Shown: positions 14,258-29,504 of the stretch, in pieces
Layout of the letters: each line of letters begins with the position of its first letter
Numbering within the stretch: the stretch's first letter is position 1
NCBI GenBank assembly: GCA_013150915.1
Contig: JAADJE010000014.1
Location: 1 to 32,762, forward strand
DNA: 32,762 nucleotides
Source of the DNA: Gammaproteobacteria bacterium
Lineage (GTDB): Bacteria > Pseudomonadota > Gammaproteobacteria > BMS3Bbin11
Direction of reading: 5' to 3'
Position numbers and translations under genes: made by a program
Notes under the pieces: generated by a model
Told to the model about the DNA's origin: nothing
The model's database searches: none
What the model saw: the letters and a program-made list of their open reading frames with translations, nothing else

Positions 14258-15153
14258 GCCAGCCATGGGTTAGTCAGCCCGAACGCGGGAATATTTTCTG
14301 GTTAAACGTAATCGGCTGGATAGCACGCCACCTGGGCAGATCGGTGGCCTCTTTATTTCTCTATCCCATTACGCTGTATTTTTTTGCTACTTCTTCGGTG
14401 ACACGGCGGGCATCCAGGGAGTTTCTCCAGCGTGTACAGGGCGTGGAGGCTTCGGGGCTGGAAGTTTTTCGTCACCACCGCTATTTTGCAGCAACCATAC
14501 TGGACAGGGTCTATTTGCTATTGGACGAAGCGTCACAATTCAATATCGAGACATTTAATGCCGAAGAAGTCCTCGCATATATCGAGAAAGGACAGGGTTG
14601 TTTGCTGTTGGGTGCTCACCTCGGCAGTTTTGAGGTCTTACGTGCGACCGGTGTGCATGATTATCGCGAAACCTTTGAGTTGCGCATCCTGATGCGGGAG
14701 GAACAAAATCGGTCGATTACACAGTTTCTCAATGTCTTGGCACCTGAAGTAGCAAAAACGGTATTACCCATAGGCCGCCCGGACACAATGTTACGGGCCA
14801 AGGAATGCCTGGACGCTGGCGGGCTGGTGGCCATGCTGGCTGACAGGGTGATGGACGATGACAAGTGTATCAGTTGCCAGTTCATGGGTGAGGCCGCAAA
14901 TTTCCCAAAAGGGCCGGCCATCCTTGCGCTGGCCTTAAAAGTGCCTGTGTTTACATGTTTTGGTCTCTATCTGGGTGGCAACCGCTATCAGATTTATTTT
15001 GATTTACTCAGCGATGTTCCAGATGTGAAACGCGAAGACAGGCCGCAGGCGATAGAAGAGTTCACCTGCCGATATGCCAGAATACTGGAACAATACACCA
15101 GCATGGCTCCCTACAACTGGTTTAATTTTTATGACTTCTGGCAGCGTGATTAA
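14254..15153 (+). CDS. LpxL/HtrB-type lysophospholipid acyltransferase
   Basis: This 299-aa protein has an N-terminal hydrophobic stretch (SVASLFLYPITLYFFATSS) and the HX4E catalytic motif in LLGAHLGSFEVL (H122, E127), with the later DAGGLVAMLADRV and FPKGPAILALALKVPVF blocks typical of the LPLAT superfamily. In APE loci this protein, sometimes fused to a glycosyltransferase (ApeJ), is thought to move the polyene from ACP to a lipid acceptor at the inner membrane. Here it stands alone; the only glycosyltransferase of the right type lies outside the operon at 9414-10145. Its end overlaps the LolA-like gene by 23 nt. Confidence 0.8.
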   Translation: MSQPWVSQPERGNIFWLNVIGWIARHLGRSVASLFLYPITLYFFATSSVTRRASREFLQRVQGVEASGLEVFRHHRYFAATILDRVYLLLDEASQFNIETFNAEEVLAYIEKGQGCLLLGAHLGSFEVLRATGVHDYRETFELRILMREEQNRSITQFLNVLAPEVAKTVLPIGRPDTMLRAKECLDAGGLVAMLADRVMDDDKCISCQFMGEAANFPKGPAILALALKVPVFTCFGLYLGGNRYQIYFDLLSDVPDVKREDRPQAIEEFTCRYARILEQYTSMAPYNWFNFYDFWQRD

Positions 15154-15715
15154 ATATTTTCTGCTGGCAGGACTGTTTGTATATCTCCCTGCTCAGGCTG
15201 ATGAACTTGAAAACCTTATGCGGAGTATGGCGGCAGTAAAAAACCGTGTCGTTGTTTATAAGGAAGAGAAGCAAATGGAAGTGCTGGAAGACTCATTATA
15301 CAGTGAGGGCAGGCTTGAATTTATTGTCCCCAATAAACTGATTCGTTGCGTGATAAAGCCTGTAAAAATATGTTACACCATTGATAGCAGACAGCTGACA
15401 ATCGAAAAAGCTGGCAAGATACAAACGCGCAGTCTTGATAATTTCCCACTGGTTCGGGTTTTTGTCGAATCCTTTCGTGCTGTCCTCGCCGGTGACCTTG
15501 CTACGCTGAAAAAACACTATTCCATAATATTTACTGGTGATCTGGTGGCATGGGAAATAACGCTGCGCCCGAAAGACAAAAAACTCACCACGTATGTAAA
15601 AAAAATTGAATTATCAGGAGTGGGTGACGATATCCAGTCGTATATTGTTGAAGACAGTAACGGTGATCTTACACGTATGCAGCTTTACCAGACTGATTCT
15701 GAGGCGATTGAATAG
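15131..15715 (+). CDS. LolA-like outer-membrane lipid carrier (ApeL-like)
   Basis: The product is 194 aa from the ATG at 15131, with a signal peptide KYFLLAGLFVYLPAQA directly before DELENLMRSM; GTG at 15146 is an equally possible start. The mature part has the LolA-like half-barrel pattern (SEGRLEFIVPNKLIRCVIKP, then KICYTIDSRQLTIEKAGK). Such proteins shuttle hydrophobic cargo across the periplasm; here the likely cargo is the polyene lipid handed over by the MMPL exporter next door. The start region overlaps the acyltransferase; the longer frame back to 15074 would bury the signal peptide and is rejected. Confidence 0.75.
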   Translation: MTSGSVIKYFLLAGLFVYLPAQADELENLMRSMAAVKNRVVVYKEEKQMEVLEDSLYSEGRLEFIVPNKLIRCVIKPVKICYTIDSRQLTIEKAGKIQTRSLDNFPLVRVFVESFRAVLAGDLATLKKHYSIIFTGDLVAWEITLRPKDKKLTTYVKKIELSGVGDDIQSYIVEDSNGDLTRMQLYQTDSEAIE

Positions 15716-15717
15716 TC

Positions 15718-18120
15718 ATGGGGGTCAGGAAGCTACTCCTGATACGATTGACCTGGTTTATTCTCCTGACACTTGCTTTATTACAGGTGTTCATCAACAC
15801 ACAGGTACAGACTGATATTGCGAGTTTTATGCCTGCGGGTAAAAATGAGCAGCAGCGACAATTACTGGAAGAATTTCAGCAAGGGCCCGCGGCCAGGCTG
15901 TGGCTGATTGCCATTACTGGTGAAGCGAGTGATGCTGACGCGCAGCAGATTATCTCTCAAAGTAAGCAACTGGCCGCTAGTCTGCGAAGATCTGGCCTGT
16001 TCTCTTCAGTCGTCAATGGGTCAGTCGCAATCGGTGATAGACTTTCTAAGCGCCTGTTCAGTTATCGTTACTTACTTGATGATTCGATAGATGAAGATTC
16101 ATTCTCGGTGACGGAATTAAAACTCACTTTTCAGCAGCGCCTGGATGAGATGACCTCACCTTTTTCCAGTTTCAGCAAACAATTGCTTATCTATGACCCG
16201 ACTGCAGCCATGCGTCGTGTTTCAGTCCGTTTGCAGGGTAATCAATCAACGCTTGAGAGCCAGGATAAGGTCTGGTATTCGAGTAAAGAAAAGGAGGCGC
16301 TTCTGATTGTAAGCAGTAAAGAATCAGGCCGTAACATCGATGCGCAGAAGAAGGCATACAATCGTATCCTGAGTGCATTCGAGCAGGTTCAGGGGAGCAT
16401 AAACTCCTCCCTTATAGTGAGTGGCGAACCTTTGTTCGCCATTGCTGCACGGGATAGCATTCGCAAGGAAAGCCGACGGCTGTCCATAGCAGCAGGTGTT
16501 TTCATGCTGGCCTTTATGTTTTTTGTGTTTAGAAATGGGCCTCTGGTGTTATTGAGTTTGCTGCCATTAGGCGCTGGTCTGTTAATCGCTACTGCAGCGG
16601 TATCATTGCTGTATGGCAGTATTCATGGGATTACGCTGGCCTTTGGCATTACATTACTCGGTGTTGCGATTGATTACCCCGTGCATCTTTTTATGCATGC
16701 AAAAAAAACGGGCTCCCTGCAACAGGCCGCGACCAGGGTCTGGCCAATATTGAGGCTTGGTGTGTTGACGACGGCGCTGGGTTATGGCGCCATGATATGG
16801 ACAGGTTTTAGCGGACTGTCTCAGCTGGGTGTATTTTCACTGGTTGGCTTGATCACAGCAGCGCTGGCTACCCAGACACTATTGCCGGCTTTGAAGCGAG
16901 ATGTCTCCGGAGAAATACCCGTGTTACAGAGGCGAGTATTGTCTTTAATGAACAGCAGATTGTCGTCCCTGGCTGGCATCACTCTGCTTGTTTTCATATT
17001 AGTCAGTCTGCTTGGCCACAAATTCTTCTTGCCAGATGATATCTGGTCTCGTGATATCGCTGCATTGAGTCCGGTACCGGCAAAACTTATACAGCAGGAT
17101 CGTATGTTAGGTAGTCGTTTGGGGCTACCGGAAGTGACCAGCATGATTCGGGTTGGGGGGAGTGATGTTGAAGATGTCCTGAGAAAAGAGGAGCGGTTGA
17201 AACCTGTGTTGGAGCAGGCCATTCGGGAAAAAACTATCACATCATTTCGCTCAGCCGCAGAGCTGTTGCCATCCATACACAGCCAACAGCTTAGGCAATC
17301 ACAGCTACCCGATCGGGAGGCTTTATCCAGGCGGATGGACAATGCCTTACAGGACTTACCCTTTAAAGCAGCGAGTTTTAAGCCTTTTCTTGATGAAGTA
17401 GAAGAGTCAAAATCCCTGGCTATTCTAAAACCCACGGATATGCGGGGTACTGCCGTCGGGACGGCACTGGATGGCCTGTTATCAACTGGTGACCGGGGAG
17501 CTACAGGTCTCATTTATCTGACCGGGTTGCAAGACAACAAGGCAATAGAAAAAATAATCAGGGCAGCAGCATTGCCGCAGGTGACTTTTATCAATATCAA
17601 ATCCGCTACCAATGAACTGATGCAGGACTTTCGTCAGGAAATTCTGCTGCGGATGGCCTGGGTTGCTGTGATTATTGTGTTGGTGTTGTTGATGGGTCTT
17701 AAGAGTATCCTACAGAGTTTTAGGGTGATTACACCTGTGGCGTTGGCGGTACTGTTTGCCGCACTGGTGCCATTGTGGCTGGGTGAAGCCTTAAATATAT
17801 TCCATCTTGTTTCCCTGTTACTGGTTGCCGGCCTCGGTCTGGATTATGCGTTATTTTTTAACAGTATTCGTGATGATCAGGAAAATGCAGATACAGTCGT
17901 TTATTCATTAGTCATCTGTGCTATCTCAAGTCTGGCCGTTTTTGCTATGCTAGCGGTTTCGAATATACCCGTACTACACGCGATAGGAATCACTGTCACA
18001 AGTGGAGTCATTGCGGCTTTTGTATTGTCCTGGATGTTTTCGAGTATACAAAGGGGAAAGATGAAGGATGAAGGGGGGCATTGCAGGGAGCGTGCCTTTT
18101 CGGCAAAAGAACTTAATTAA
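15718..18120 (+). CDS. MMPL/RND-family exporter
   Basis: This 800-aa protein has one N-terminal membrane segment, a large periplasmic loop (~30-255), a cluster of five segments (~260-375) with GITLLGVAIDYPVHLFMH, a further segment and second periplasmic loop (~400-640), and a second cluster (~645-785) with LLLVAGLGLDYALFF. The two Gly-rich Asp-Tyr motifs (GVAIDYP and GLGLDYA) are the proton-relay signature of the family. It is expected to export the finished polyene lipid using the proton gradient, partnered with the LolA-like protein. The start lies 2 nt after the previous stop. Confidence 0.82.
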   Translation: MGVRKLLLIRLTWFILLTLALLQVFINTQVQTDIASFMPAGKNEQQRQLLEEFQQGPAARLWLIAITGEASDADAQQIISQSKQLAASLRRSGLFSSVVNGSVAIGDRLSKRLFSYRYLLDDSIDEDSFSVTELKLTFQQRLDEMTSPFSSFSKQLLIYDPTAAMRRVSVRLQGNQSTLESQDKVWYSSKEKEALLIVSSKESGRNIDAQKKAYNRILSAFEQVQGSINSSLIVSGEPLFAIAARDSIRKESRRLSIAAGVFMLAFMFFVFRNGPLVLLSLLPLGAGLLIATAAVSLLYGSIHGITLAFGITLLGVAIDYPVHLFMHAKKTGSLQQAATRVWPILRLGVLTTALGYGAMIWTGFSGLSQLGVFSLVGLITAALATQTLLPALKRDVSGEIPVLQRRVLSLMNSRLSSLAGITLLVFILVSLLGHKFFLPDDIWSRDIAALSPVPAKLIQQDRMLGSRLGLPEVTSMIRVGGSDVEDVLRKEERLKPVLEQAIREKTITSFRSAAELLPSIHSQQLRQSQLPDREALSRRMDNALQDLPFKAASFKPFLDEVEESKSLAILKPTDMRGTAVGTALDGLLSTGDRGATGLIYLTGLQDNKAIEKIIRAAALPQVTFINIKSATNELMQDFRQEILLRMAWVAVIIVLVLLMGLKSILQSFRVITPVALAVLFAALVPLWLGEALNIFHLVSLLLVAGLGLDYALFFNSIRDDQENADTVVYSLVICAISSLAVFAMLAVSNIPVLHAIGITVTSGVIAAFVLSWMFSSIQRGKMKDEGGHCRERAFSAKELN

Positions 18121-18127
18121 GCAGCAA

Positions 18128-19324
18128 ATGAATAAAAATATCTCACTTACGGCCTTTACCGTGACGACTGCCCTTGGCGCAGGTCTGTCGCCGAATCGTG
18201 AAGCCCTGAAACAATCACGAACCGGCCTGAAAAAGAATGGTTTCGCGGGGATCGAATTTGATACCTATATTGGTCAGGTTGATGGTGTTGATGATGTTAT
18301 TCTGCCCGAAGAACAGGCAGATTTTAACTGCCGGAATAATCGTCTGGCTGAGTTAAGTCTGCGTCAGGACGGTATTTTTGATGCAATCGATGAACTTAAA
18401 GTGCGTTATGGGGCGAATCGAATCGGTCTGTTTATCGGCACGTCTACATCCGGCATTCAGCAAACAGAGATGGCCTATGCCATGCGCGCATCTGAAACGG
18501 ATGAGCTGCCAGCCTGGTTCAAGTACGAGACGACACATGATGTCTTTTCACCTGCAACTTTTCTGGTCAACCGATTGGGTTTGTGCGGGCCATCACAGAT
18601 TATTTCAACCGCCTGCTCATCAAGTGCTCGTGTGTTTGCAGCGGCTGCGCGGCATATACATGCGGGTCTTTGTGATGCGGCCATAGTCGGTGGCGTTGAT
18701 AGTTTATGCCAGACGACGCTCTATGGTTTTAATGCTCTGCAGCTGGTCTCCAATAAGCTCTGTTGTCCGGCGGATGTAGACCGGGATGGCATCAATATTG
18801 GTGAGGCAGCCGGTTTTGTTCTGCTCGAGAAAGGGCATCAGGAGAATGCATTAAGCTTACTTGGGGTTGGCGAAAGTTCTGATGCATGGCACATGTCTAG
18901 CCCCCATCCACAAGGGGAAGGCGCGGTACAGGCTATGCAGCAGGCACTTACCCGCGCAAACCTTGAGCCTGCTCAGATTGACTATATCAACCTGCATGGA
19001 ACGGCAACACCGGTCAATGATTTCACAGAAGATCAGGCAATGATGACGGTGTTTTCGGGCAATAATCCCTGTTCATCTACCAAAGGATTTACTGGCCATA
19101 CGCTTGGTGCTGCCGGTATTGTGGGTGCTGTGTTTTCGTGTCTCTTTATTGAAGAGAATCTGCTGCCGATCAGCCTGAATACACAACGGATAGACAGTAA
19201 GATTCATTCGAATATAATGCTCGAGGCAAACTCAGAAACGAAGTCAGAGATTGATATTGTCATGAGCAACTGCTTCGGATTTGGTGGCAGTAATGCAAGT
19301 CTGATCATAGGGCGACCCACATGA
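18128..19324 (+). CDS. Beta-ketoacyl-ACP synthase (ApeO-like)
   Basis: The product is 398 aa from ATG 18128, 7 nt after the MMPL stop; an upstream in-frame ATG at 18068 would lie inside that gene. The complete Cys-His-His triad is present: C163 in STACSSSA, H290 in NLHGTATPVND and H324 in KGFTGHTLGAAG. The closing GFGGSNAS glycine loop is also present. It performs decarboxylative condensation for chain extension. The following gene is a Cys-less partial homologue, giving the KS:CLF pair seen for ApeO:ApeC. Its stop overlaps that gene by 4 nt. Confidence 0.86.
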   Translation: MNKNISLTAFTVTTALGAGLSPNREALKQSRTGLKKNGFAGIEFDTYIGQVDGVDDVILPEEQADFNCRNNRLAELSLRQDGIFDAIDELKVRYGANRIGLFIGTSTSGIQQTEMAYAMRASETDELPAWFKYETTHDVFSPATFLVNRLGLCGPSQIISTACSSSARVFAAAARHIHAGLCDAAIVGGVDSLCQTTLYGFNALQLVSNKLCCPADVDRDGINIGEAAGFVLLEKGHQENALSLLGVGESSDAWHMSSPHPQGEGAVQAMQQALTRANLEPAQIDYINLHGTATPVNDFTEDQAMMTVFSGNNPCSSTKGFTGHTLGAAGIVGAVFSCLFIEENLLPISLNTQRIDSKIHSNIMLEANSETKSEIDIVMSNCFGFGGSNASLIIGRPT

Positions 19325-20124
19325 AAACTGTCGGCATAGCCGGGATTGGTCTGGTCGCGCCGGGTATAGAATGCTGGGACAGCGGCAGAGATTTACTCGC
19401 ATCCGGGGGGCATTATGAAATCTCTGCTGAATTTCCGGTACTAAGGCCCTCTTCTCTTTCTGGCAATGAAAGGCGCCGCACTACTGACACTATCAAACTG
19501 GCTCTACAATGTGCACAGGATGCTATGGCTGACCAGTCTGTAGTAGGGGTTTCAGATCCTGAGCTGACATCGGTATTTGCCTGTTCCAGTGGAGATTTAA
19601 ATATTGTCGACCGGATACTTTCAACCCTGACCATGCCCGGTAAGCCGGTTTCTCCAACACATTTTCATAACTCCGTTCATAATGCACCAGCAGGCTACTG
19701 GTCCATTGCCTCGGGTTCACAAGCGCCGACAACCAGTATTGCAGCCGGAGAGGGAACATTCAGCGCCGGCTTGCTTGAAGCAATAACACAGATACTGGCA
19801 GATGATCACCCTGTTCTATTGATTGTTTATGATGCACTGCCACCTGCTGTATTACTTAAACACAGAAAAATAACGGTCGCTTTTGGTGTGGCGATATTAC
19901 TGGTGCCGGAAAAGACAAAGTATAGTCTATCGGTAATCATCCATGATGGGGAAGCCTGTTGCAGTAAAATGATAAATCCGGGCTTTGAGCGGTTACGACA
20001 GGCGAATCCTGCGGCCCAGTGTCTGCCTTTGCTGCAGAATCTTGCGCTACAACAATCTACAAGCCTCAAGTTTCCCTATCTACAGGGGCAGGGGCTCGTT
20101 CTGGATCTCACAATCAATGAATGA
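19321..20124 (+). CDS. Chain-length-factor-like partial ketosynthase (ApeC-like)
   Basis: This 267-aa protein corresponds to the N-terminal half of a ketosynthase (MKTVGIAGIGLVAPGI, then NERRRTTDTIKLALQCAQDA and FHNSVHNAPAGYWSIA). At the nucleophile position it has SIAAGEGTFSAG (about 139-150), with no cysteine, and the C-terminal histidine half is absent. That is the structure of the chain-length factor ApeC, which binds the active KS and sets polyene length without catalysing condensation itself. It is translationally coupled to the KS. Confidence 0.8.
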   Translation: MKTVGIAGIGLVAPGIECWDSGRDLLASGGHYEISAEFPVLRPSSLSGNERRRTTDTIKLALQCAQDAMADQSVVGVSDPELTSVFACSSGDLNIVDRILSTLTMPGKPVSPTHFHNSVHNAPAGYWSIASGSQAPTTSIAAGEGTFSAGLLEAITQILADDHPVLLIVYDALPPAVLLKHRKITVAFGVAILLVPEKTKYSLSVIIHDGEACCSKMINPGFERLRQANPAAQCLPLLQNLALQQSTSLKFPYLQGQGLVLDLTINE

Positions 20125-20569
20125 ACGGGATGAACGTTGCAGGCGAATACCGCATAGCGGGAGCATGTGTCTGTTGGACCGAGTACTGGAGTGGGATAAC
20201 AATACCATAATATGTGAGGCTGTCAGTCATAGAGATAAGGGTAATCCTTTAAGTTGTGATGGGGCCTTATCCTCGGTCGTCGCTATCGAATACGGTGCAC
20301 AGGCCACGGCGGTACACGGCAGTCTGCTCGGTGCAAAGGATGAAAGAACAGGGCAGGCATCCTATCTGGCCGCCGTACGCGATGTGGAATTCAAGGTAAG
20401 CTGGCTCCATGACATCGATCACCCACTAACGGTAAAAGCAGAACGTCTAATCGATGATGCAAACGGTATAATCTATCGGTTTAGTCTCTATGCCCTGTCC
20501 CGATTGCTGGTACAGGGGAGGTTTACGGTAATGATGTCTATGGACAGGAAAATCAGGGTGAAGAAATGA
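20117..20569 (+). CDS. Second hotdog dehydratase (ApeP-like)
   Basis: The product is 150 aa from ATG 20117, overlapping the previous gene by 8 nt. The N-terminus RRIPHSGSMCLLDRVLEWD carries the family His (H13) in PHxGxMxLLD, and ASYLAAVRDVEFKV and FSLYALSRLLVQGRF follow. In APE systems ApeP pairs with ApeI to form an active heterodimeric dehydratase, so the two genes at 13907 and 20117 probably encode one enzyme. The longer open frame upstream of 20117 is only read-through. Confidence 0.8.
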   Translation: MNERDERCRRIPHSGSMCLLDRVLEWDNNTIICEAVSHRDKGNPLSCDGALSSVVAIEYGAQATAVHGSLLGAKDERTGQASYLAAVRDVEFKVSWLHDIDHPLTVKAERLIDDANGIIYRFSLYALSRLLVQGRFTVMMSMDRKIRVKK

Positions 20570-21285
20570 AGCAGGCGCTGGTAACGGGCGGCAGTGGCGA
20601 TATTGGTGCGGCCATTTGCTATAAGCTGGCTCAGCAGGGGCTGCATGTCATTGTTCACGCAATGAATAGACCAGAGCATGCCGGGGATGTCACCGCTTCA
20701 ATTATTGCGTCCGGTGGTTCAGCTGAAGCCATCTGTTTTGATGTCAGTGATGCAGAGGCAAGCAGGAAGATTCTTGAGAGTAAACTGGCCAACCGCCCGA
20801 TTCAGATCATTGTCAGTAATGCTGGCATCCATGATGATGTGCCGCTGGCAGGTATGAGCTATGAGCAATGGCATCGCGTCATTGATGTCTCCCTGCACGG
20901 TTTTTATAATGTGACTCAACCCTTGTTGCTGCCAATGATGCGTACTCACTGGGGTCGTGTGATTGCGATTTCCTCCATCGCTGCCCAGTTAGGGAATCGT
21001 GGTCAGGCCAATTATGCTGCAGCCAAGGCGGGACTGCATGGTGCTGTTAAGTCGTTGTCACAGGAACTGGCTTCCCGCGGTATTACGGCTAATGTTGTGG
21101 CACCGGGAATTATCCAGGGTGAAATGACTGACAACCTGTTTGATAAAGAAACAATAAAAAAAATGGTGCCGGCACAGCGCGCTGGATTGCCGGATGAAGT
21201 GGCGGATCTGGTGGCCTTTCTTGCTTCAGATAATGCGGCATATATCTCAGGGCAGGTTATTGGCATTAATGGTGGGATCGTGTAG
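20566..21285 (+). CDS. FabG-type 3-ketoacyl-ACP reductase (ApeQ-like)
   Basis: This 239-aa short-chain dehydrogenase has the NADP-binding TGGSGDIG (residues 7-14), NAG at 85-87, the catalytic Ser in AISSIAA (136/137), and Tyr150 and Lys154 in NYAAAKAG. It reduces the beta-keto intermediate before dehydration. It is the last gene of the operon, overlaps ApeP by 4 nt and converges on the methyltransferase 48 bp away. Confidence 0.85.
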   Translation: MKQALVTGGSGDIGAAICYKLAQQGLHVIVHAMNRPEHAGDVTASIIASGGSAEAICFDVSDAEASRKILESKLANRPIQIIVSNAGIHDDVPLAGMSYEQWHRVIDVSLHGFYNVTQPLLLPMMRTHWGRVIAISSIAAQLGNRGQANYAAAKAGLHGAVKSLSQELASRGITANVVAPGIIQGEMTDNLFDKETIKKMVPAQRAGLPDEVADLVAFLASDNAAYISGQVIGINGGIV

Positions 21286-21333
21286 TTTATTTTTTGTACG
21301 GATGGGAGGCTTAATAAAAAAGAAAGAGATACA

Positions 21334-22416
21334 TCAAGCGGCAGGCTTACTGCATTCAAACAAGGTATGGCAGATGCCTATATTGTCGTGAATCTTGCCA
21401 ACATCGAGGCCTGCTGCATTGATACATTTTATTAACACGTCCGAGTGATACATCCTGGAGTTACCGCTGGCCATGGCGGTAAAGTACAGCGATGTATTGA
21501 CCAGCGAGTAGGCAGAAGCTTCATGTTGTTGCCGGTCCCAGCAGGTTTCTAAAATATAGAGGCGTGTATTGTCTCCCATAGCACTGGCGATGCGCTGCAG
21601 TATGTTGATGATGTCCTGTTTGCCGAAACAGGACAGAAACTGACTTAACCAGAAGGCATCAATACCTCTCGGAAAGCGTTGCGTCCTGTCCAGTAAATCC
21701 ATTGCCAGTGAATCAATGCGTTCAGTCAGGTTTGCTTCCGAGACGTTATTGATCGCATTCTGTAATTGATCAGGAAGGTCTACCATGGTGATGTGGATAT
21801 CAGGATTGTACTTTGCGGCAAGAATTGAAAATTTGCCTATATTGGCACCAACGTCCATCATTGTTTTTGGGCCAGGTTCAAAAATAATGGGAAGTACTAC
21901 CGGGTAGGCAGAATCCGAGTAAAAGTGGTCAAAGGCATACCAGCTATTTTTTATGTCTTCAGGAAGGTGAGGTAACGCCTGATAGAGTGTCTCCCATTGT
22001 TCCCCAAAAACACGCAGACCGGCTGGCTTTCCCCTCTTACATGCCTCATCAAGATGGTACATGCCCCGGTAGCAGATGTAATGATTGTAATCCATATTGT
22101 TACGGGTCATTTCATCATGCAGTAGATAAAAGCCCGTCTTGCTCAGGTGATACAATTCATCTTTATCAATATCAACGACACCGCAGCTCAAACCGCTCTC
22201 CAGTAGTATTTCTACGGCATAAAGGCTGAGCTTGAGTTTTTCAGCCACTTCATTTGCGGACACTCCGGCTTTATGTTCATCCAGCTGGGAGAGTATCCCG
22301 AGTTCACGCATCGTCCGCACGGCCTGAAAAACCAGTGGGGCATAGGCAATCTTCTGTGCCTCATAGATAGCATCATAGGCCGTGAGTGGCTTGTGTTTGA
22401 ACAGGTCTTTTTTCAT
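21334..22416 (-). CDS. SAM-dependent O-methyltransferase-like protein
   Basis: This 360-aa protein has an N-terminal winged-helix region (GILSQLDEHKAGVSANEVAE, about 40-110) and a class I methyltransferase fold with motif I MMDVGANIGKFSILAAKYNP near 190 and the acidic strand end MVDLP. The architecture matches the acetylserotonin/hydroxyindole O-methyltransferase group (PF00891-like). Methyltransferases accompany APE and xanthomonadin loci and can decorate the aryl head group. Its convergent position against the KR gene supports a role in the same pathway; substrate and site are unknown. GGAAAAAA precedes the start. Confidence 0.72.
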   Translation of the reverse strand: MKKDLFKHKPLTAYDAIYEAQKIAYAPLVFQAVRTMRELGILSQLDEHKAGVSANEVAEKLKLSLYAVEILLESGLSCGVVDIDKDELYHLSKTGFYLLHDEMTRNNMDYNHYICYRGMYHLDEACKRGKPAGLRVFGEQWETLYQALPHLPEDIKNSWYAFDHFYSDSAYPVVLPIIFEPGPKTMMDVGANIGKFSILAAKYNPDIHITMVDLPDQLQNAINNVSEANLTERIDSLAMDLLDRTQRFPRGIDAFWLSQFLSCFGKQDIINILQRIASAMGDNTRLYILETCWDRQQHEASAYSLVNTSLYFTAMASGNSRMYHSDVLIKCINAAGLDVGKIHDNIGICHTLFECSKPAA

Positions 22417-22781: not shown

Positions 22782-23645
22782 TTATTTTCCAGCAGCCGCC
22801 GGCTGTTTGGTTTCATCTTCGTCCAGCTCAAAGCCCCAGAAATCACTTAATAAGAATCCGTATCCTTCATATTCAGCCTTGTCGGTAGCAACCATTTCCT
22901 TTCCACCTGCAAACCGCTTTCGTAGATTTTCTGTTGCCGCTACACCTTCCGGGCTAAGCAGGGCTGCCCGTATTTCCTGCTGGACATCATCAGGTATTTT
23001 TGGGCTTGCACTGATCGCCTGATGTGGCAGGCCTGTACTGTGAAACAATATCTGGGTTTGCTTTTTCTCATCCTTTTTATTGAGCCTATCGTAAACTTTT
23101 GCCGGTATGACCGCGGCATCGCATTTACCGTTAAGCATTGCTTTGTATACATTTTTAAAACCACGTACCACCACGATTCTTGGTTGTCTGGCCGGGTTTT
23201 GGAACTGATCCTGCATGGTTAATGTGGCGAGGTTGGGTGGAGCATGACCACAAATGGGTTTGCCAGCCAGATCCTGCAGTTTGGTTATTTTTGCATTGTC
23301 CTTTCTGGAGATCACTACGAATGCCAGTTTACCGGGTAGACGAACCAGGGGTGTATGTTGCAGTGCAGCGACCCGCCAACTGACAAAATGTGGGCCATCG
23401 AAGACCAGATCATATTTACCCAAACGCATCCCTTTCATATAAGAGAGCCAGTTGTCCGGGTGTTTATAGGTGAAGGTATGATTTGTTTTTCTGGTCAGGA
23501 AATCGGCTATGGGTCCGTACATTGCCTTGCCTTCTGCAGGTTTCTCACGTGGGGGGGAAGTGAAGAGAAATTCACCGGCTTGTGCTGTAGTCAGGCCCGA
23601 AAAGGCAATTAGAAGACTTGATACCAAAATTTTAATAAATTTCAT
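22782..23645 (-). CDS. PhnD-like periplasmic substrate-binding protein
   Basis: The product is 287 aa from ATG 23645, chosen because a Sec signal peptide follows directly (FIKILVSSLLIAFSGLTTAQA); an in-frame start 14 codons upstream would displace it. The mature protein has the type 2 periplasmic-binding pattern of the phosphate/phosphite/phosphonate group: FLFTSPPREKPAEGKAMYGP, YDLVFDGPHFVSWR, KLQDLAGKPICGHAPPNLAT, then YKAMLNGKCDAAVI. No ABC permease or ATPase lies nearby, so it may be an orphan receptor, a sensor input, or partner of a transporter elsewhere. The acidic C-terminus (ELDEDETKQPAAAGK) is a short extension. Ligand unknown. Confidence 0.72.
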   Translation of the reverse strand: MKFIKILVSSLLIAFSGLTTAQAGEFLFTSPPREKPAEGKAMYGPIADFLTRKTNHTFTYKHPDNWLSYMKGMRLGKYDLVFDGPHFVSWRVAALQHTPLVRLPGKLAFVVISRKDNAKITKLQDLAGKPICGHAPPNLATLTMQDQFQNPARQPRIVVVRGFKNVYKAMLNGKCDAAVIPAKVYDRLNKKDEKKQTQILFHSTGLPHQAISASPKIPDDVQQEIRAALLSPEGVAATENLRKRFAGGKEMVATDKAEYEGYGFLLSDFWGFELDEDETKQPAAAGK

Positions 23646-24337
23646 CGAGACACCCAATAAATAGTTGTAACTATTTGAAGTGCACATTTATTGATAGATT
23701 TTTTATCTACTGAGCACTTTTTATCATATATTTTTTATACTCATGATCACCGTGACGAATTGTGATGATCGCTAGCATGACTCAGTAATTACTTACAGTC
23801 AAGGTGATGTGTAGGTGACGACAGTACATGGAAGTTTGCAGCACATGACAAAGCTATCCAGCAGTGACGTACGATGTAAAATTTTAAGTGGATTGCTTAG
23901 ATGGAATTGAGCATCCATTCACAGCACAGGTGAAATACCAAATGGAGGATGTAATGAGGGTAATTTATCAATTCAGTATCGATAAGATTTATCCCGGATT
24001 CTCGTGCAGGACATGATTCGATGTATTTCATAATTAATTCATGGGTCTGTTTAAGGAAATCACCTCGTTGTATTTAATTACGACGAATTTCATAATTGAT
24101 CGTCGATTTATGCCCCCCCTAAAATTTCAGTAATATCAGTTTACTTATGAGCTGCTTTTATTAATGTCCAAATCTGGTATCGTTGCTCATGGACAAGTTG
24201 CATGTAGCCTTATTGGCTTTTTCATTTACTTGATGGCCATAAAAAAGCCACGATGTTACTTCAGCTTGACCACTAAACCGATGAGTTAAGTTGCACTTCA
24301 AAGCTAAATCCACAATACGAATTTTAAGGGAGGTTCC
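23646..24337. other. 692-bp gene-free region
   Basis: No credible gene is seen. An AT-rich stretch near 23690-23760 contains an imperfect inverted TGATCAC/GTGATGATC, and GGCTTTTT (about 24219) faces AAAAAGCC (about 24242) as a weak hairpin. A strong Shine-Dalgarno AAGGGAGG (24326-24333) ends the region. It probably holds the divergent promoters of its two flanking genes and could hide a small RNA. Confidence 0.45.
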
Positions 24338-25456
24338 ATGCAAGTCTTCAGGCCTATTGCTACACGTCTATTAAGTGACGCCGATATATCGATTAATGGT
24401 ATTCGTTCGCATGACATCAGGGTTCATGATGATCGTTTCTATCAAAACGTGTTGTTAAAGGGGTCTATGGGCCTGGGTGAAGATTATATGGATGGTGGGT
24501 GGGACTGCGAAGACCTTGAAGAGATGTTTTTTCGGCTCATCAACTCCGGTCTTGAGGACCGGATTCGGGGGCTTCCTGTAAACTTCTTGCCGAATTTATT
24601 TGCACAGCTTAAAAATCAGCAAACACGAAATAAGTCCTTAAGAGTTGCTGAGCGGCATTACAATATGGGTAACGATCTTTTTTTCAGTTTTCTCGGAAAA
24701 TATAAGAACTACAGTTGCGGCTACTTTAATGGGACGACTAAGTCTTTGGATATTGCCCAAGAACAAAAGATGGATCTTATCTGTCGTAAGTTAAGCCTGT
24801 CTAGCGGTGATCGCCTGCTCGATGTAGGAGGGGGTTGGGGTGAGATCGCTCGGTTTGCTGCAGATAACTATGGTTGTCATGTGACCAGTATCAATATATC
24901 AGATGAACAGATTGCCTATGGTCGCGAATACTGCAAAGATAGCTCTGTCAATATCCTCAAATGTGACTATCGCGATCTGGAAGGAGAATATGATAAAATA
25001 ATCGTCATCGCAATGCTTACCCACGTTGGGCACAAGAACTATCGGGCATTTATGGAGAAGATTCACTCTTGTTTGAAAGATGGCGGTAGTGCCCTGATCG
25101 AAACGGTAGGCAGTACTGTGGCCCGTAAGCATTGCGAGCCATGGACCAACAAATATATTTTTCCTGGCGGACTTATTCCCTCCATTAGCCAGCTTGGTGA
25201 AGCGATAGAGGGGCTTTTCGTAATTGAGGATCTTCATGATTTCGGACCTGACTATGTTAAAACACTTCGTTTGTGGAACAAAAATCTTCAGAAAGGCTGG
25301 CCAGGTCAGAGTGAGATATACAGCGAGCGGATCCGACGGATGTTCGAGTATTTTTTTCTTTCAGTAGCTGGGGCATTTCGGGCCCGAAGCTTACACAATT
25401 GGCATTTGGTATTAACTAAAAATGCGATTGATAAACCCAACTGTCGCGTAGTTTAG
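24338..25456 (+). CDS. cfa: Cyclopropane-fatty-acyl-phospholipid synthase
   Basis: This 372-aa protein has an N-terminal lipid-binding domain (about 1-100, LLKGSMGLGEDYMDGGWDCE) and a methyltransferase domain with HYNMGNDLFFSFLG, the active-site cysteine C127 in NYSCGYF, motif I LDVGGGWG (161-168), MLTHVGHKNY and the FPGGLIPS block. These are hallmark Cfa residues. It methylenates unsaturated phospholipid acyl chains using SAM at the inner membrane, usually on entry to stationary phase or under stress. The strong AAGGGAGG 4 nt upstream fixes the start. It is followed after 31 nt by the SAM-cyclase-AAA-TPR gene, so they may be co-transcribed. Confidence 0.88.
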   Translation: MQVFRPIATRLLSDADISINGIRSHDIRVHDDRFYQNVLLKGSMGLGEDYMDGGWDCEDLEEMFFRLINSGLEDRIRGLPVNFLPNLFAQLKNQQTRNKSLRVAERHYNMGNDLFFSFLGKYKNYSCGYFNGTTKSLDIAQEQKMDLICRKLSLSSGDRLLDVGGGWGEIARFAADNYGCHVTSINISDEQIAYGREYCKDSSVNILKCDYRDLEGEYDKIIVIAMLTHVGHKNYRAFMEKIHSCLKDGGSALIETVGSTVARKHCEPWTNKYIFPGGLIPSISQLGEAIEGLFVIEDLHDFGPDYVKTLRLWNKNLQKGWPGQSEIYSERIRRMFEYFFLSVAGAFRARSLHNWHLVLTKNAIDKPNCRVV

Positions 25457-25487: not shown

Positions 25488-28400
25488 ATGAAGGAGACTG
25501 AGTATTGGCTCAAGAGCATAGGCTTCGAGCGTTACAGCAAGCTCTTCAAGGAGCATGCGGTCAAATTCGAGCTACTTGCCCAGCTTAAAGACGATGACCT
25601 GAAAGAGATGGGTATCGCCCGATTGGATGATCGAAAGAAGCTGCTGCATGCAATCAATGCCCTGCGGGATAAGCTACCACAAAAAAATATTTCATCGCCC
25701 CCGCAGGAAAATCCTCATTCGATGCAGGATGATGAGGAGTTCCGGCAGGTAACCGTTTTGTATTCCAGTCTGGTTGATTCGACAGAACCCGCAAAAAAAA
25801 ATTCTCCGGAGGAATTCCGTACTATCATGCGGATCTTCCGTGATGCATGTGAATCGATCACATCCTACGAAGGCTGTATCTCAAAGTTTACAGGAGACGG
25901 TATTGTTGCGTATTTTGGTTGGCCCAAGGTGCATGACGATCATGCAGAACATGCGGTACAGGCAGGACTTGATCTGATAAAAACTATCCGGGAAATAGAA
26001 TTTCCCGGTATGCTCAAGCTAAGCGTACAGGTTGGGATTGCGACTGGAGAAGTTGTTATCGGTAATATCTTTGATGAGACAACCGTAGATGTTGGTGCCC
26101 TGTTGGGCGAGACGACCCGGCTCGCAGAAAGCCTCCAGTCCCGGTCAGAGCCAAATCAAATAGTACTCGACTCAGACACCAGAAACCTGATCGATCAGTC
26201 GTTTCAACTCTACGAACTGGGCGCACAACCGGTAAAAGGACACATTGAGCCAGTACAGGCATGGAGCGTCGTCGGTAAGACAGCCATCAAGACCGATTCC
26301 GAGGGGAAGGCCGCGCCTTTGGTGAAATTTGTGAACCGTAAGCATGAGCTTGCTGCCATGCTGAGGAGCTGGGAAAAAACCAAAAATGGAAATGGCCGAG
26401 CCATAGAGATACTCGGTGATTCAGGAATCGGCAAGTCACGGCTTATTGAAGTCTTTCTGGAACACATTGCGGAAGACGCTCCTTTGGTAATTCGCTATCG
26501 CTGTGCAAGTTTTCACGATAACAGTGCCCTGTTCCCAGTGATTCAACATTTGTACGGGTTGATAGGTTATTCCGGTAAGGAATCGCTAGACAGCGCATTC
26601 GATGTGATCGAAAGGATATCTGGCCTGGATTCATCAACGGATACCAGCGACCTTCGATTAATTGCCAGTCTGTTAAACCTGGACTTTGAGTCCCGTTATG
26701 GATCGATCGAGATCAACCCACAGGAGCGACAGAGACGGTCGCTTGAGGCACTGAAGCAACTAATATTGAAAATTGCCGGGTCGAAACCACTGCTTATTAT
26801 TGTCGAAGATAAGCACTGGCTAGATCCCACGACCAGTGAACTTATTCGTAAGCTTGTAAGTGATCTGGCTGTTCAAAAGGTGATGGTTATTACCACACAT
26901 CGGGCAGAGTATGATTCAGCTTTTCAGGCCAGTAAACATGTCGATCGCATACTTCTTCATTGTCTCAATAAAAAGGATGCTATCGAATTGGTGGAATCAA
27001 TCAATAATGGTTCTCTTACATCAGATGTCGTTGAGAGAATTGTTCACCTTGCCAACAGTGTCCCCCTGTACCTGGAGGAAATCACTCAGTCGACAATGGC
27101 GTCCTCCGATTCTATATCTATGCCACTTATTCCCACAAGCCTACGGGCATCCCTGATGGTAAGGCTGGATCGATTGAAAGATGTCAAAGAAGTCGCGCAG
27201 GCCTGTTCAGTTGTGGGTCTGGAATTCGAACTAAGTGTCTTACTGGCGATTATAGAATGGCCAAAAATCAAGTTAATCGAGGCGATTAATAAACTGGAAA
27301 ATATGGGTTTTGTGCGCAGGTGTCACACTACGGCAGGTATTAAATATGAATTCAAGCACACCCTAATCCAGGATGCCATATATAAAAGTATAGGGATCCA
27401 GGACAGAAAAAGGTTACATAAACGCGTGTCTCTGATTATGAGAGATCAATTAGAATATTCTGTGGCGGCTAACCCGGAACTTCTAGCCAATCACCTCCTG
27501 GCTGCTGGCAATTTGGAGGATGCGAATTTCTACTGGCTGCAAGCAGGGCGACGTGCAGTAGACGTTTTTGCCTATTCTGAAGCAATCACGCACTTCACCG
27601 CTGGACTAAAACATCTTTCATCTATGGCCGATGACAAGAAAAGGAAAGAACTTGAATTCGAACTCAGAGTGGGTTTGTGTACGCCTCTTATCGTCACGGA
27701 AGGTTACACCAGCCCCAAGCTAAATGAAGTCATTAATCGTGCCATCCATCTTAGAAAGGAGATCAGTAGTGTTCAGGGAATATATCCTGTGCTATACGGT
27801 AAATGGGCCTATCTATTGACATTGGGTCGCGGGCTCGAAGCATTGGCGATGGCCAGGGAATATTCTTTGCTGGCAGAACAACAAAATGATGAAGATGCGC
27901 TTTATATCAGGCACAGAATGCTTGGAGCATCAAACCTCTTCATGGGAAAATTGTCTACGGCGAGCCGGTATATAGGACTCGCAATCAAGCAATATGAAGA
28001 GAGCAAGCATGCAAGCTTTGCTACCTCGCAGAGTGTTGATCCTTATGTGGCATCACACTGTTTCGATAGCTTTAATAGTTGGTTATTGGGCCTGCCTGAT
28101 CGTGCTGTGGCCTCTACGAACTCAGCCTATCTCCATGCAACTCGACTCAAGCACCCGCACAGCATTGCAATGTCGATGTTTTTTCTTGCTATGGTGTATT
28201 TTTGTCGCAAGGAGCCCGATAAGGTTTACAAGTATGCACAGGAGTTGATCTCCCTGTCTGAGAAACACATGATCGGTAGTTGGCCTTCCCTGGGGAGGTC
28301 GTTGCTCGGTTGGGCGATGGTTAAAACCGGTGATAGCACTCGTGGTATGAAGAATATATATAAAGGTCTCGATCACGCACAGCGTATTGGGGTTTGTATG

Positions 28401-28796
28401 TGGGTACCGGTAATTACAGCCGGGCTGGTCGAAATCCTGATAGAAGCCGGTAGTATAGACAAGGCAGCCGAGCATCTTGTGCGGGTTAGGGAATATATGG
28501 AAAGCAGTGAAGAGCTGAACTACCTCGCAGAATTCGAGCGTCTGGATGGGGAATTACTTCGGGCTCGCGGTGAGGTGAGATCGGCTGAAAATGCGTTTAA
28601 CAAAGCGCTGGATGTGGCTCGGTCACAACAATCGCTTATGCTACAACTTCGAGCCGTCGTTAGCCTGGCGAGACTGTACCAGGATACGGACTGGAAGCAG
28701 GAAGTCGCTATCCTTGTAAAGCCCGTGCTAGACAAAATATCAGAGGGTGAAACAACACAGGATGTAAGGGCCGCACAGGACCTGCTTCTTCTCTGA
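25488..28796 (+). CDS. SAM-cyclase homology-AAA-TPR protein with degenerate cyclase site
   Basis: This is a 1102-aa soluble protein. Residues ~4-62 form a SAM domain (WLKSIGFERYSKLFKEHA). Residues ~85-245 form a class III nucleotide cyclase homology domain. Residues ~270-600 form an AAA/STAND ATPase with Walker A GDSGIGKSR (310-318) and Walker B LLIIVEDKHWLDP (435-447). A TPR-like helical C-terminus runs to the end. In the cyclase domain the second metal Asp (GDG, D137) is kept. The first metal Asp is Ser94 (VLYSSLVDST), and the Asn and Arg of the usual NLAARL are R211 and S215 (TRLAESL). Cyclase activity therefore seems lost, while the ATPase looks intact. Homologues are multidomain signalling proteins. 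ACAGGAG precedes the ATG. Confidence 0.82.
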   Translation: MKETEYWLKSIGFERYSKLFKEHAVKFELLAQLKDDDLKEMGIARLDDRKKLLHAINALRDKLPQKNISSPPQENPHSMQDDEEFRQVTVLYSSLVDSTEPAKKNSPEEFRTIMRIFRDACESITSYEGCISKFTGDGIVAYFGWPKVHDDHAEHAVQAGLDLIKTIREIEFPGMLKLSVQVGIATGEVVIGNIFDETTVDVGALLGETTRLAESLQSRSEPNQIVLDSDTRNLIDQSFQLYELGAQPVKGHIEPVQAWSVVGKTAIKTDSEGKAAPLVKFVNRKHELAAMLRSWEKTKNGNGRAIEILGDSGIGKSRLIEVFLEHIAEDAPLVIRYRCASFHDNSALFPVIQHLYGLIGYSGKESLDSAFDVIERISGLDSSTDTSDLRLIASLLNLDFESRYGSIEINPQERQRRSLEALKQLILKIAGSKPLLIIVEDKHWLDPTTSELIRKLVSDLAVQKVMVITTHRAEYDSAFQASKHVDRILLHCLNKKDAIELVESINNGSLTSDVVERIVHLANSVPLYLEEITQSTMASSDSISMPLIPTSLRASLMVRLDRLKDVKEVAQACSVVGLEFELSVLLAIIEWPKIKLIEAINKLENMGFVRRCHTTAGIKYEFKHTLIQDAIYKSIGIQDRKRLHKRVSLIMRDQLEYSVAANPELLANHLLAAGNLEDANFYWLQAGRRAVDVFAYSEAITHFTAGLKHLSSMADDKKRKELEFELRVGLCTPLIVTEGYTSPKLNEVINRAIHLRKEISSVQGIYPVLYGKWAYLLTLGRGLEALAMAREYSLLAEQQNDEDALYIRHRMLGASNLFMGKLSTASRYIGLAIKQYEESKHASFATSQSVDPYVASHCFDSFNSWLLGLPDRAVASTNSAYLHATRLKHPHSIAMSMFFLAMVYFCRKEPDKVYKYAQELISLSEKHMIGSWPSLGRSLLGWAMVKTGDSTRGMKNIYKGLDHAQRIGVCMWVPVITAGLVEILIEAGSIDKAAEHLVRVREYMESSEELNYLAEFERLDGELLRARGEVRSAENAFNKALDVARSQQSLMLQLRAVVSLARLYQDTDWKQEVAILVKPVLDKISEGETTQDVRAAQDLLLL

Positions 28797-28874: not shown

Positions 28875-29504
28875 TCACTGCGCGTACTCCTTGATAGCCT
28901 TAAAATCAACGATCTTAAAGTATTCTTTGAGTACTTCTGGCGACACCCTTTTATCACCATCAATTTTTACCAGGATCTTGTTGGCAACCATTGAAGTAAG
29001 AGAATTCTCGCGCTCATTGGCAATGGCTTTTTCACCATCGATGACGGTTAATTTGTTGTTCTGACCCATAAACAAAGGATTGGAAAACATCATACCCATT
29101 GTTTGAATAAGGGGTGAATCTGTTGTGATTGAGATTGTCAGTCCTATGACCTTGCCGTCAGTTTTTTTCGTATATCGTCTTTTGGCACTAATTCCACCAC
29201 CAAACATGCCAGCGGCCGCCGCACTACTTTTAGCTTTTCCTGCTTCCCAGCCGTTAAGTGGTTCAGGCAGGAGCTTGCTGACCAGTTCACCTTTTTTCTG
29301 CCTGATCAGTGTGGAAGCAGAATCGAGAGCAGTGATGGCCGTGTTGTAGTCATTTTTTTCATAGGCCTTTATCGCCTCCTCAATTTGGTCTTTGACATCA
29401 TCTGCCAGCAGCGTAGAAGAAAGGCTGAGAAATAGCGCAAGTGAGAGGGGTATCAGGGTAGACAGTGTGAGCGTGTTTGGCTTTCTTGTTAGAAGTAAGG
29501 GCAT
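28875..29504 (-). CDS. Exported protein of unknown function
   Basis: This 209-aa protein has a signal peptide (LSTLIPLSLALFLSLSSTLLADD). A helical TPR-like stretch follows (DQIEEAIKAYEKNDYNTAIT, then ALDSASTLIRQKK), then a segment with LPEPLNGWEAGKAKSSAAAAG and FGGGISAKRRY, and an alpha/beta C-terminal half ending FKIVDFKAIKEYAQ. I recognise no named family. GGAG lies 8-9 nt before the ATG. The gene diverges from oxyR, sharing a 135-bp promoter region that holds the palindrome at 29596-29610, so a role in oxidative or envelope stress is a context-based guess. Confidence 0.6.
   Translation of the reverse strand: MPLLLTRKPNTLTLSTLIPLSLALFLSLSSTLLADDVKDQIEEAIKAYEKNDYNTAITALDSASTLIRQKKGELVSKLLPEPLNGWEAGKAKSSAAAAGMFGGGISAKRRYTKKTDGKVIGLTISITTDSPLIQTMGMMFSNPLFMGQNNKLTVIDGEKAIANERENSLTSMVANKILVKIDGDKRVSPEVLKEYFKIVDFKAIKEYAQ

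Follow-up and report, generated by a model that had tools for sequence, protein, structure and literature searches.

A SAM–STAND–TPR protein with a degenerate class III cyclase domain in a gammaproteobacterium

We describe a protein from a gammaproteobacterium that combines a class III cyclase homology domain (CHD) with the nucleotide-binding and sensor regions of a STAND ATPase, and whose CHD has unambiguously lost three of the four key catalytic residues in alignments. Hence, the domain is probably catalytically dead, and the switch in which it is embedded probably signals without making cAMP in this bacterium. The explanation that we favor, and regard as reasonably probable, is that of a TPR-sensor STAND ATPase with a dead class III cyclase effector, the CHD having been kept as a dimerization module. 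The gene lies in a stretch of 32,762 nucleotides (hereinafter the window), with its ATG at 25488 immediately preceded by AGGAG and its stop codon ending at 28796; a cfa gene ends 31 bp upstream on the same strand. The features are as follows:

24338..25456, plus strand: cfa, cyclopropane-fatty-acyl-phospholipid synthase (NF008686, 459 bits, above cut-off)
25488..28796, plus strand: SAM-CHD-AAA_16(STAND)-TPR protein of 1102 aa (ORF, Pfam domains, full-length model)
25494..25667, plus strand: SAM (sterile alpha motif) domain, residues 3-60 (PF00536, SAM_1, residues 6-60, E 5e-15; PF07647)
25734..26243, plus strand: CHD, residues 83-252, catalytically degenerate (PF00211, Guanylate_cyc, E 5e-17; AlphaFold2, Foldseek)
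25767..25769, plus strand: S94 (AGT), where the first metal-binding Asp is expected (alignments)
25896..25898, plus strand: D137 (GAC), the second metal-binding Asp, kept (alignments)
26118..26120, plus strand: R211 (CGG), where the transition-state Asn is expected (alignments)
26130..26132, plus strand: S215 (AGC), where the catalytic Arg is expected (alignments)
26325..26891, plus strand: AAA_16 / STAND nucleotide-binding domain (NBD), residues 280-468 (PF13191, E 2e-18; motifs)
26415-26438 and 26796-26810, plus strand: Walker A and Walker B, respectively, inside the AAA_16 / STAND domain
26913..27572, plus strand: helical, winged-helix-like and arm part of the STAND core, about residues 476-695, limits approximate (FKH..I/VQDA and PL(F/Y)(V/L)EE motifs; model secondary structure)
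27573..28793, plus strand: TPR-like all-helical sensor region, about residues 696-1102 (paired helices in the model; weak PF17874)

The first-pass annotation, made from the letters alone, had read the gene as a pseudo-cyclase fused to SAM, AAA and TPR domains, and both the Pfam domains and the full-length model bear out this architecture, with the N-terminal SAM and the domain order of the SAM-CHD-AAA_16-TPR family; the Pfam match to PF17874 (TPR_MalT, residues 900-1068, E 9e-8) lies under the family cut-off. It had also named the four catalytic positions, and its numbering proved exact in the codons and in two kinds of alignment. A phmmer alignment to the solved structure of Cya2 (2w01) pairs S94 and D137 with Asp, R211 with Asn and S215 with Arg, and a MAFFT alignment with the relatives places them in the identical columns (FCDLVGST in the relatives vs YSSLVDST here; GETPNLAARL vs GETTRLAESL). 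Thus, the PF00211 domain and cyclase fold are present, but S94 leaves D137 as the only metal-binding Asp and R211 and S215 replace both the transition-state Asn and the Arg; K133 is retained beside D137. Misaligned catalytic motifs are ruled out as a cause, as three independent alignments agree, and no better alignment brings catalytic residues to nearby positions, so that the original pseudo-cyclase observation stands. As S94 and R211 are each at least two base changes from any Asp or Asn codon, a single sequencing error would not suffice to account for them; for S215, an Arg codon is a single change away.

Class III cyclase sites are built at the dimer interface, between two subunits (PMC7384201). 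A homodimer of the window protein would have both of its sites without one metal Asp, the Asn and the Arg, whereas a heterodimer with an intact cyclase would have one site without the first Asp and the other without the Asn and the Arg. Since the half contributing the metal Asp and the half contributing the Asn and Arg are both damaged, an intact cyclase as partner should not restore a site.

Comparison with relatives sets this protein apart. Class-, phylum- and collection-wide searches recovered no close orthologue, the best match being about 33% identical over the full length, which disposes of the possibility raised at the outset that the substitutions are shared by and conserved in orthologues. 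Rhizobia, Nitrospira and uncultured Alpha- and Gammaproteobacteria supply the best full-length matches. Nothing matched over the full length in the six genus members and the one further family member searched, and an uninformative scan of genome contigs with the single window protein as query returned no relative. Against the intact relatives of the same architecture the contrast is sharp: all four catalytic residues are kept in 75/75 full-length SAM-CHD-AAA-TPR homologues and in 96 of the 98 SAM-type proteins, the exceptions being the window protein and, with one catalytic change, a second-copy protein (L059) of an Arenicellales MAG. Among 147 CHD-AAA proteins, 21 of the 27 zinc-ribbon-type members are intact, and altered CHD residues occur in all ten BTAD-type proteins and in the one kinase-type protein; these frequencies are indicative only, because similarity to the window protein was the basis for collecting the survey sets, with one search using a CHD peptide pattern, and architectures were assigned by simple phmmer and motif rules. 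The BTAD-type proteins (L008, L010, L015, L049, L050, L051, L052, L055, L056 and L226) join a BTAD/SARP-type transcription-regulator domain to a degenerate CHD, an AAA_16 domain and helical repeats; Pfam, run on five of them, no longer recognizes the CHD in four. Their uniform alteration, at 10/10, implies that the loss of cyclase chemistry is recurrent here. A search of the literature on pseudo-cyclases found nothing direct.

The CHD has lost catalytic residues, apparently without losing its fold. Its AlphaFold2 model has a mean pLDDT of 90.9, although the intact relatives in the input alignment favor a cyclase-like fold, and it matches Cya2 (2w01) and CyaB (3r5g) with TM-scores of 0.91-0.92 (Foldseek, PDB). 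When computed per domain on one fixed tree, the terminal branch makes up 0.036 of the tree length for the SAM domain, 0.056 for the CHD, 0.052 for the NBD, 0.054 for the winged-helix region and 0.025 for the TPR region, with mean identity ratios of 0.69, 0.69 and 0.67 for the CHD, NBD and winged-helix region, respectively. As the branch share of the CHD is close to those of the NBD and winged-helix region, the domain overall has not diverged beyond the ATPase core. Wholesale decay of the CHD is likewise ruled out by the branch shares and identity ratios, both of which match the core. Where at least 95% of the relatives agree, the CHD nevertheless deviates at 12 of 36 sites, vs 8 of 63 in the other domains (Fisher p 0.02). 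The winged-helix region is also somewhat raised, at 5 of 27, pointing to a fast-evolving protein as a whole. The protein is among the longest branches in all domains but the TPR, its terminal branch measuring about 1.2 substitutions per site. We claim no excess of hits at catalytic over other conserved CHD sites (p 0.10). Taken together, the branch shares and the conserved-site deviations indicate a CHD under fold-level constraint that has yet lost conserved positions, the catalytic ones included. The lack of stops within the CHD is not evidence for its use, as an open frame is required in any case for the downstream ATPase.

The ATPase core, in turn, bears every expected motif: Walker A (GDSGIGKS, 310-317), Walker B (IIVED, 437-441), H443/W444/D446 and R472, with K316, E440, D441 and R472 agreeing with the family residues, just as the initial reading of apparently complete AAA motifs had suggested. 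The full-length model (pLDDT 86.5) has as its top PDB match PH0952 (6mfv), a STAND protein with a TPR sensor; the match spans 723 columns with an rmsd of 12.4, a high value that implies domain-wise rather than rigid agreement. An NBD with both Walker motifs, a winged-helix domain after it, and then an arm and a repeat sensor together place the protein, by architecture, among the STAND ATPases. Such proteins are closed when ADP-bound and open up into an ATP form that multimerizes; the repeats act as the sensor, and the effector sits at one end or the other (PMC6468293).

By analogy with MalT and PH0952, we advance the following mechanism. At rest, ADP would be bound in the NBD and winged-helix part, which the TPR sensor would keep locked; binding of an inducer to the TPRs would then permit exchange of ADP for ATP and assembly of the protomers. 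In the active relatives this assembly would join the cyclase domains and turn on cAMP or cGMP synthesis. In the window protein the CHD is predicted to fold and can probably pair, but should be unable to catalyze; it would serve as a dimerization element in the assembled scaffold, and the output might pass through protein–protein contacts of that scaffold and of the N-terminal SAM domain, the SAM-borne output being a guess. A dimerization or structural role is plausible given that the CHD keeps its fold and evolves no faster than the ATPase core. More tentatively, we offer a generalization that may well prove wrong, namely that the CHD of CHD-STAND-TPR proteins is an exchangeable effector, which repeatedly becomes a non-catalytic dimerization or coupling module once another output takes over; in the window protein the SAM domain would have become that output, yielding a cAMP-free, scaffold-forming switch that is possibly tied to membrane cyclopropanation.

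This last point concerns the neighborhood. The cfa and cyclase genes form a unit of about 5 kb that is present here and missing in two genus relatives, and both gain by transfer and loss would fit. In one relative (G002) a non-coding gap, about 0.2 kb of it unaligned, lies between the homologues of 22782-23687 and 28875-29504, and in the other (G001) about 0.1 kb is unaligned at the syntenic site, vs the roughly 5 kb in the window; neither has a cfa or cyclase gene at these empty sites (in L165 and L167). The left flank, conserved in both, is a PhnD-like periplasmic binding protein gene (22782-23687, minus strand). The unit's GC of 0.44-0.47 resembles that of the neighboring genes, so composition does not mark it as foreign; no repeats clearly bound it, an Rfam scan of the window returned nothing, and promoter and terminator scans stayed at chance level. 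Farther upstream, 15074-22416 holds genes like those of aryl polyene or flexirubin-type pigment clusters (ketosynthases, a dehydratase, a 3-ketoacyl reductase, an RND-like exporter and an FlxJ-like methyltransferase), conserved from 15196 on in G002.

A regulatory link to cfa, which the first-pass annotation had suggested, is possible: the short gap, the shared strand and the joint absence from the syntenic site in both relatives speak for it, whereas in the 29 loci fetched for the best cfa homologues in the class, the homologue never adjoins a relative of the window protein, and no other collected member of its family lies beside this kind of cfa. General co-occurrence with cfa is ruled out by these two surveys. 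The stronger proposal of a regulator or sensor dedicated to cfa, and thus to membrane lipid cyclopropanation, with the two genes traveling as one transferable unit, is compatible with the STAND-switch explanation, to which it would add a target, but we consider it doubtful. It could draw on the fact that no terminator-like site lies on that strand in the region (in a scan at chance level), and on two loci of related genomes (L040 and L045 in G116 and G232) with a CMAS-like gene directly downstream of a CHD-AAA-TPR gene; against this, the CMAS-like neighbors are only 23-26% identical to the window cfa, and no mechanism is seen. At the same two loci a protein-kinase-like gene lies upstream of the CHD-AAA-TPR gene.

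Other cyclases of the genome, a draft of 97.7% completeness in 122 contigs, bear on the remaining alternatives. There are two further PF00211 genes: a CHASE2-type adenylate cyclase (L169, contig C51, 3576-5626, minus strand), split into two frames within the CHD by a short insertion relative to G002, and a gene (L003, contig C32, 850-1911, minus strand) whose CHD, judged by eye, has FVQ and TGE replacing both metal Asps but keeps the Asn and Arg in DVNLASR, and is followed by a hydrophobic segment. The frame break could be a true mutation or an assembly error. No class I cyclase was found in the genome, which does encode CRP/FNR-type cNMP-binding domains; an intact cyclase of class I or class III is thus not seen in the draft, with the proviso that the CHASE2 break could stem from assembly.

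Such damage to the other cyclase genes would suit a relic in slow decay, in which the gene lost its selective value, CHD catalysis went first and the protein is now useless. Just one of the searched genus members has the gene; this, the empty syntenic sites and the long branches outside the TPR region point the same way. However, all 1102 codons are open despite the long terminal branch, over which many stops would be expected without selection, and the intact ATPase motifs, the intact CHD fold in the model and the ribosome-binding site further argue against decay; we hence regard it as unlikely. Quite improbable, in our estimate, is a nucleotide sensor, i.e., a CHD that gates the ATPase by binding ATP, cAMP or another nucleotide that it does not turn over. 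Other families do include nucleotide-binding pseudoenzymes, and the retention of D137 and K133 within a preserved fold is consistent with one; but the changes are common to no orthologue and so present no conserved replacement pattern. Of the two roles first suggested for the domain, dimerization therefore remains plausible on the strength of its fold and core-like divergence, and the sensor finds no support because the domain has lost the catalytic Arg and one of its two metal ligands. Finally, a CHD with unusual chemistry, or one active as a heterodimer with another cyclase as in soluble guanylate cyclase and mammalian adenylyl cyclases, which are class III heterodimers with one dead site, is very improbable indeed, since neither composite site should be complete with both the S94 and R211/S215 sides damaged, and the genome's other two class III domains are frameshifted or degenerate with no class I cyclase found.

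If the favored account is true, bacterial pseudo-cyclases would parallel pseudokinases and offer a way to ask what a CHD does in a STAND switch beyond cAMP. Proteins with cyclase domains are routinely annotated as adenylate or guanylate cyclases, a label that, to judge by the window protein and all ten BTAD fusions, can be wrong in STAND proteins, where the CHD may be kept for assembly. More interesting as a lead is the wider pattern of catalytic losses in CHDs that are fused to a BTAD or kinase effector.

Among known systems, the closest in domain order and length are the SAM-PF00211-AAA_16 proteins noted in root nodule bacteria and other Proteobacteria (PMC4653623), to which the window protein is about 29-33% identical over the full length and from whose catalytic residues, intact in all 75 full-length SAM homologues examined, it departs at three positions. 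The AfsR-like STAND regulators of BTAD/SARP-CHD-AAA-TPR type likewise place a degenerate CHD just before a STAND ATPase and helical repeats, but their N terminus carries a DNA-binding/BTAD effector and their CHDs are mostly further degraded, whereas the window protein has only the SAM domain. MalT and PH0952 share the NBD-WHD-TPR architecture and differ in having a DNA-binding effector and neither SAM nor CHD. The cyclase-ATPase-TPR part of TIGR03903 (TOMM_kin_cyc) aligns over residues 77-1062, albeit at 440 bits vs a cut-off of 705.75, and its kinase domain is absent here. One comparable mycobacterial protein, Rv0386, is reportedly an adenylyl cyclase. It belongs to the CHD-AAA-LuxR proteins (Mclx), in which a CHD is fused to an AAA/NB-ARC ATPase (PMC4452763) as in the window protein, but which, unlike it, carry a C-terminal LuxR DNA-binding domain.
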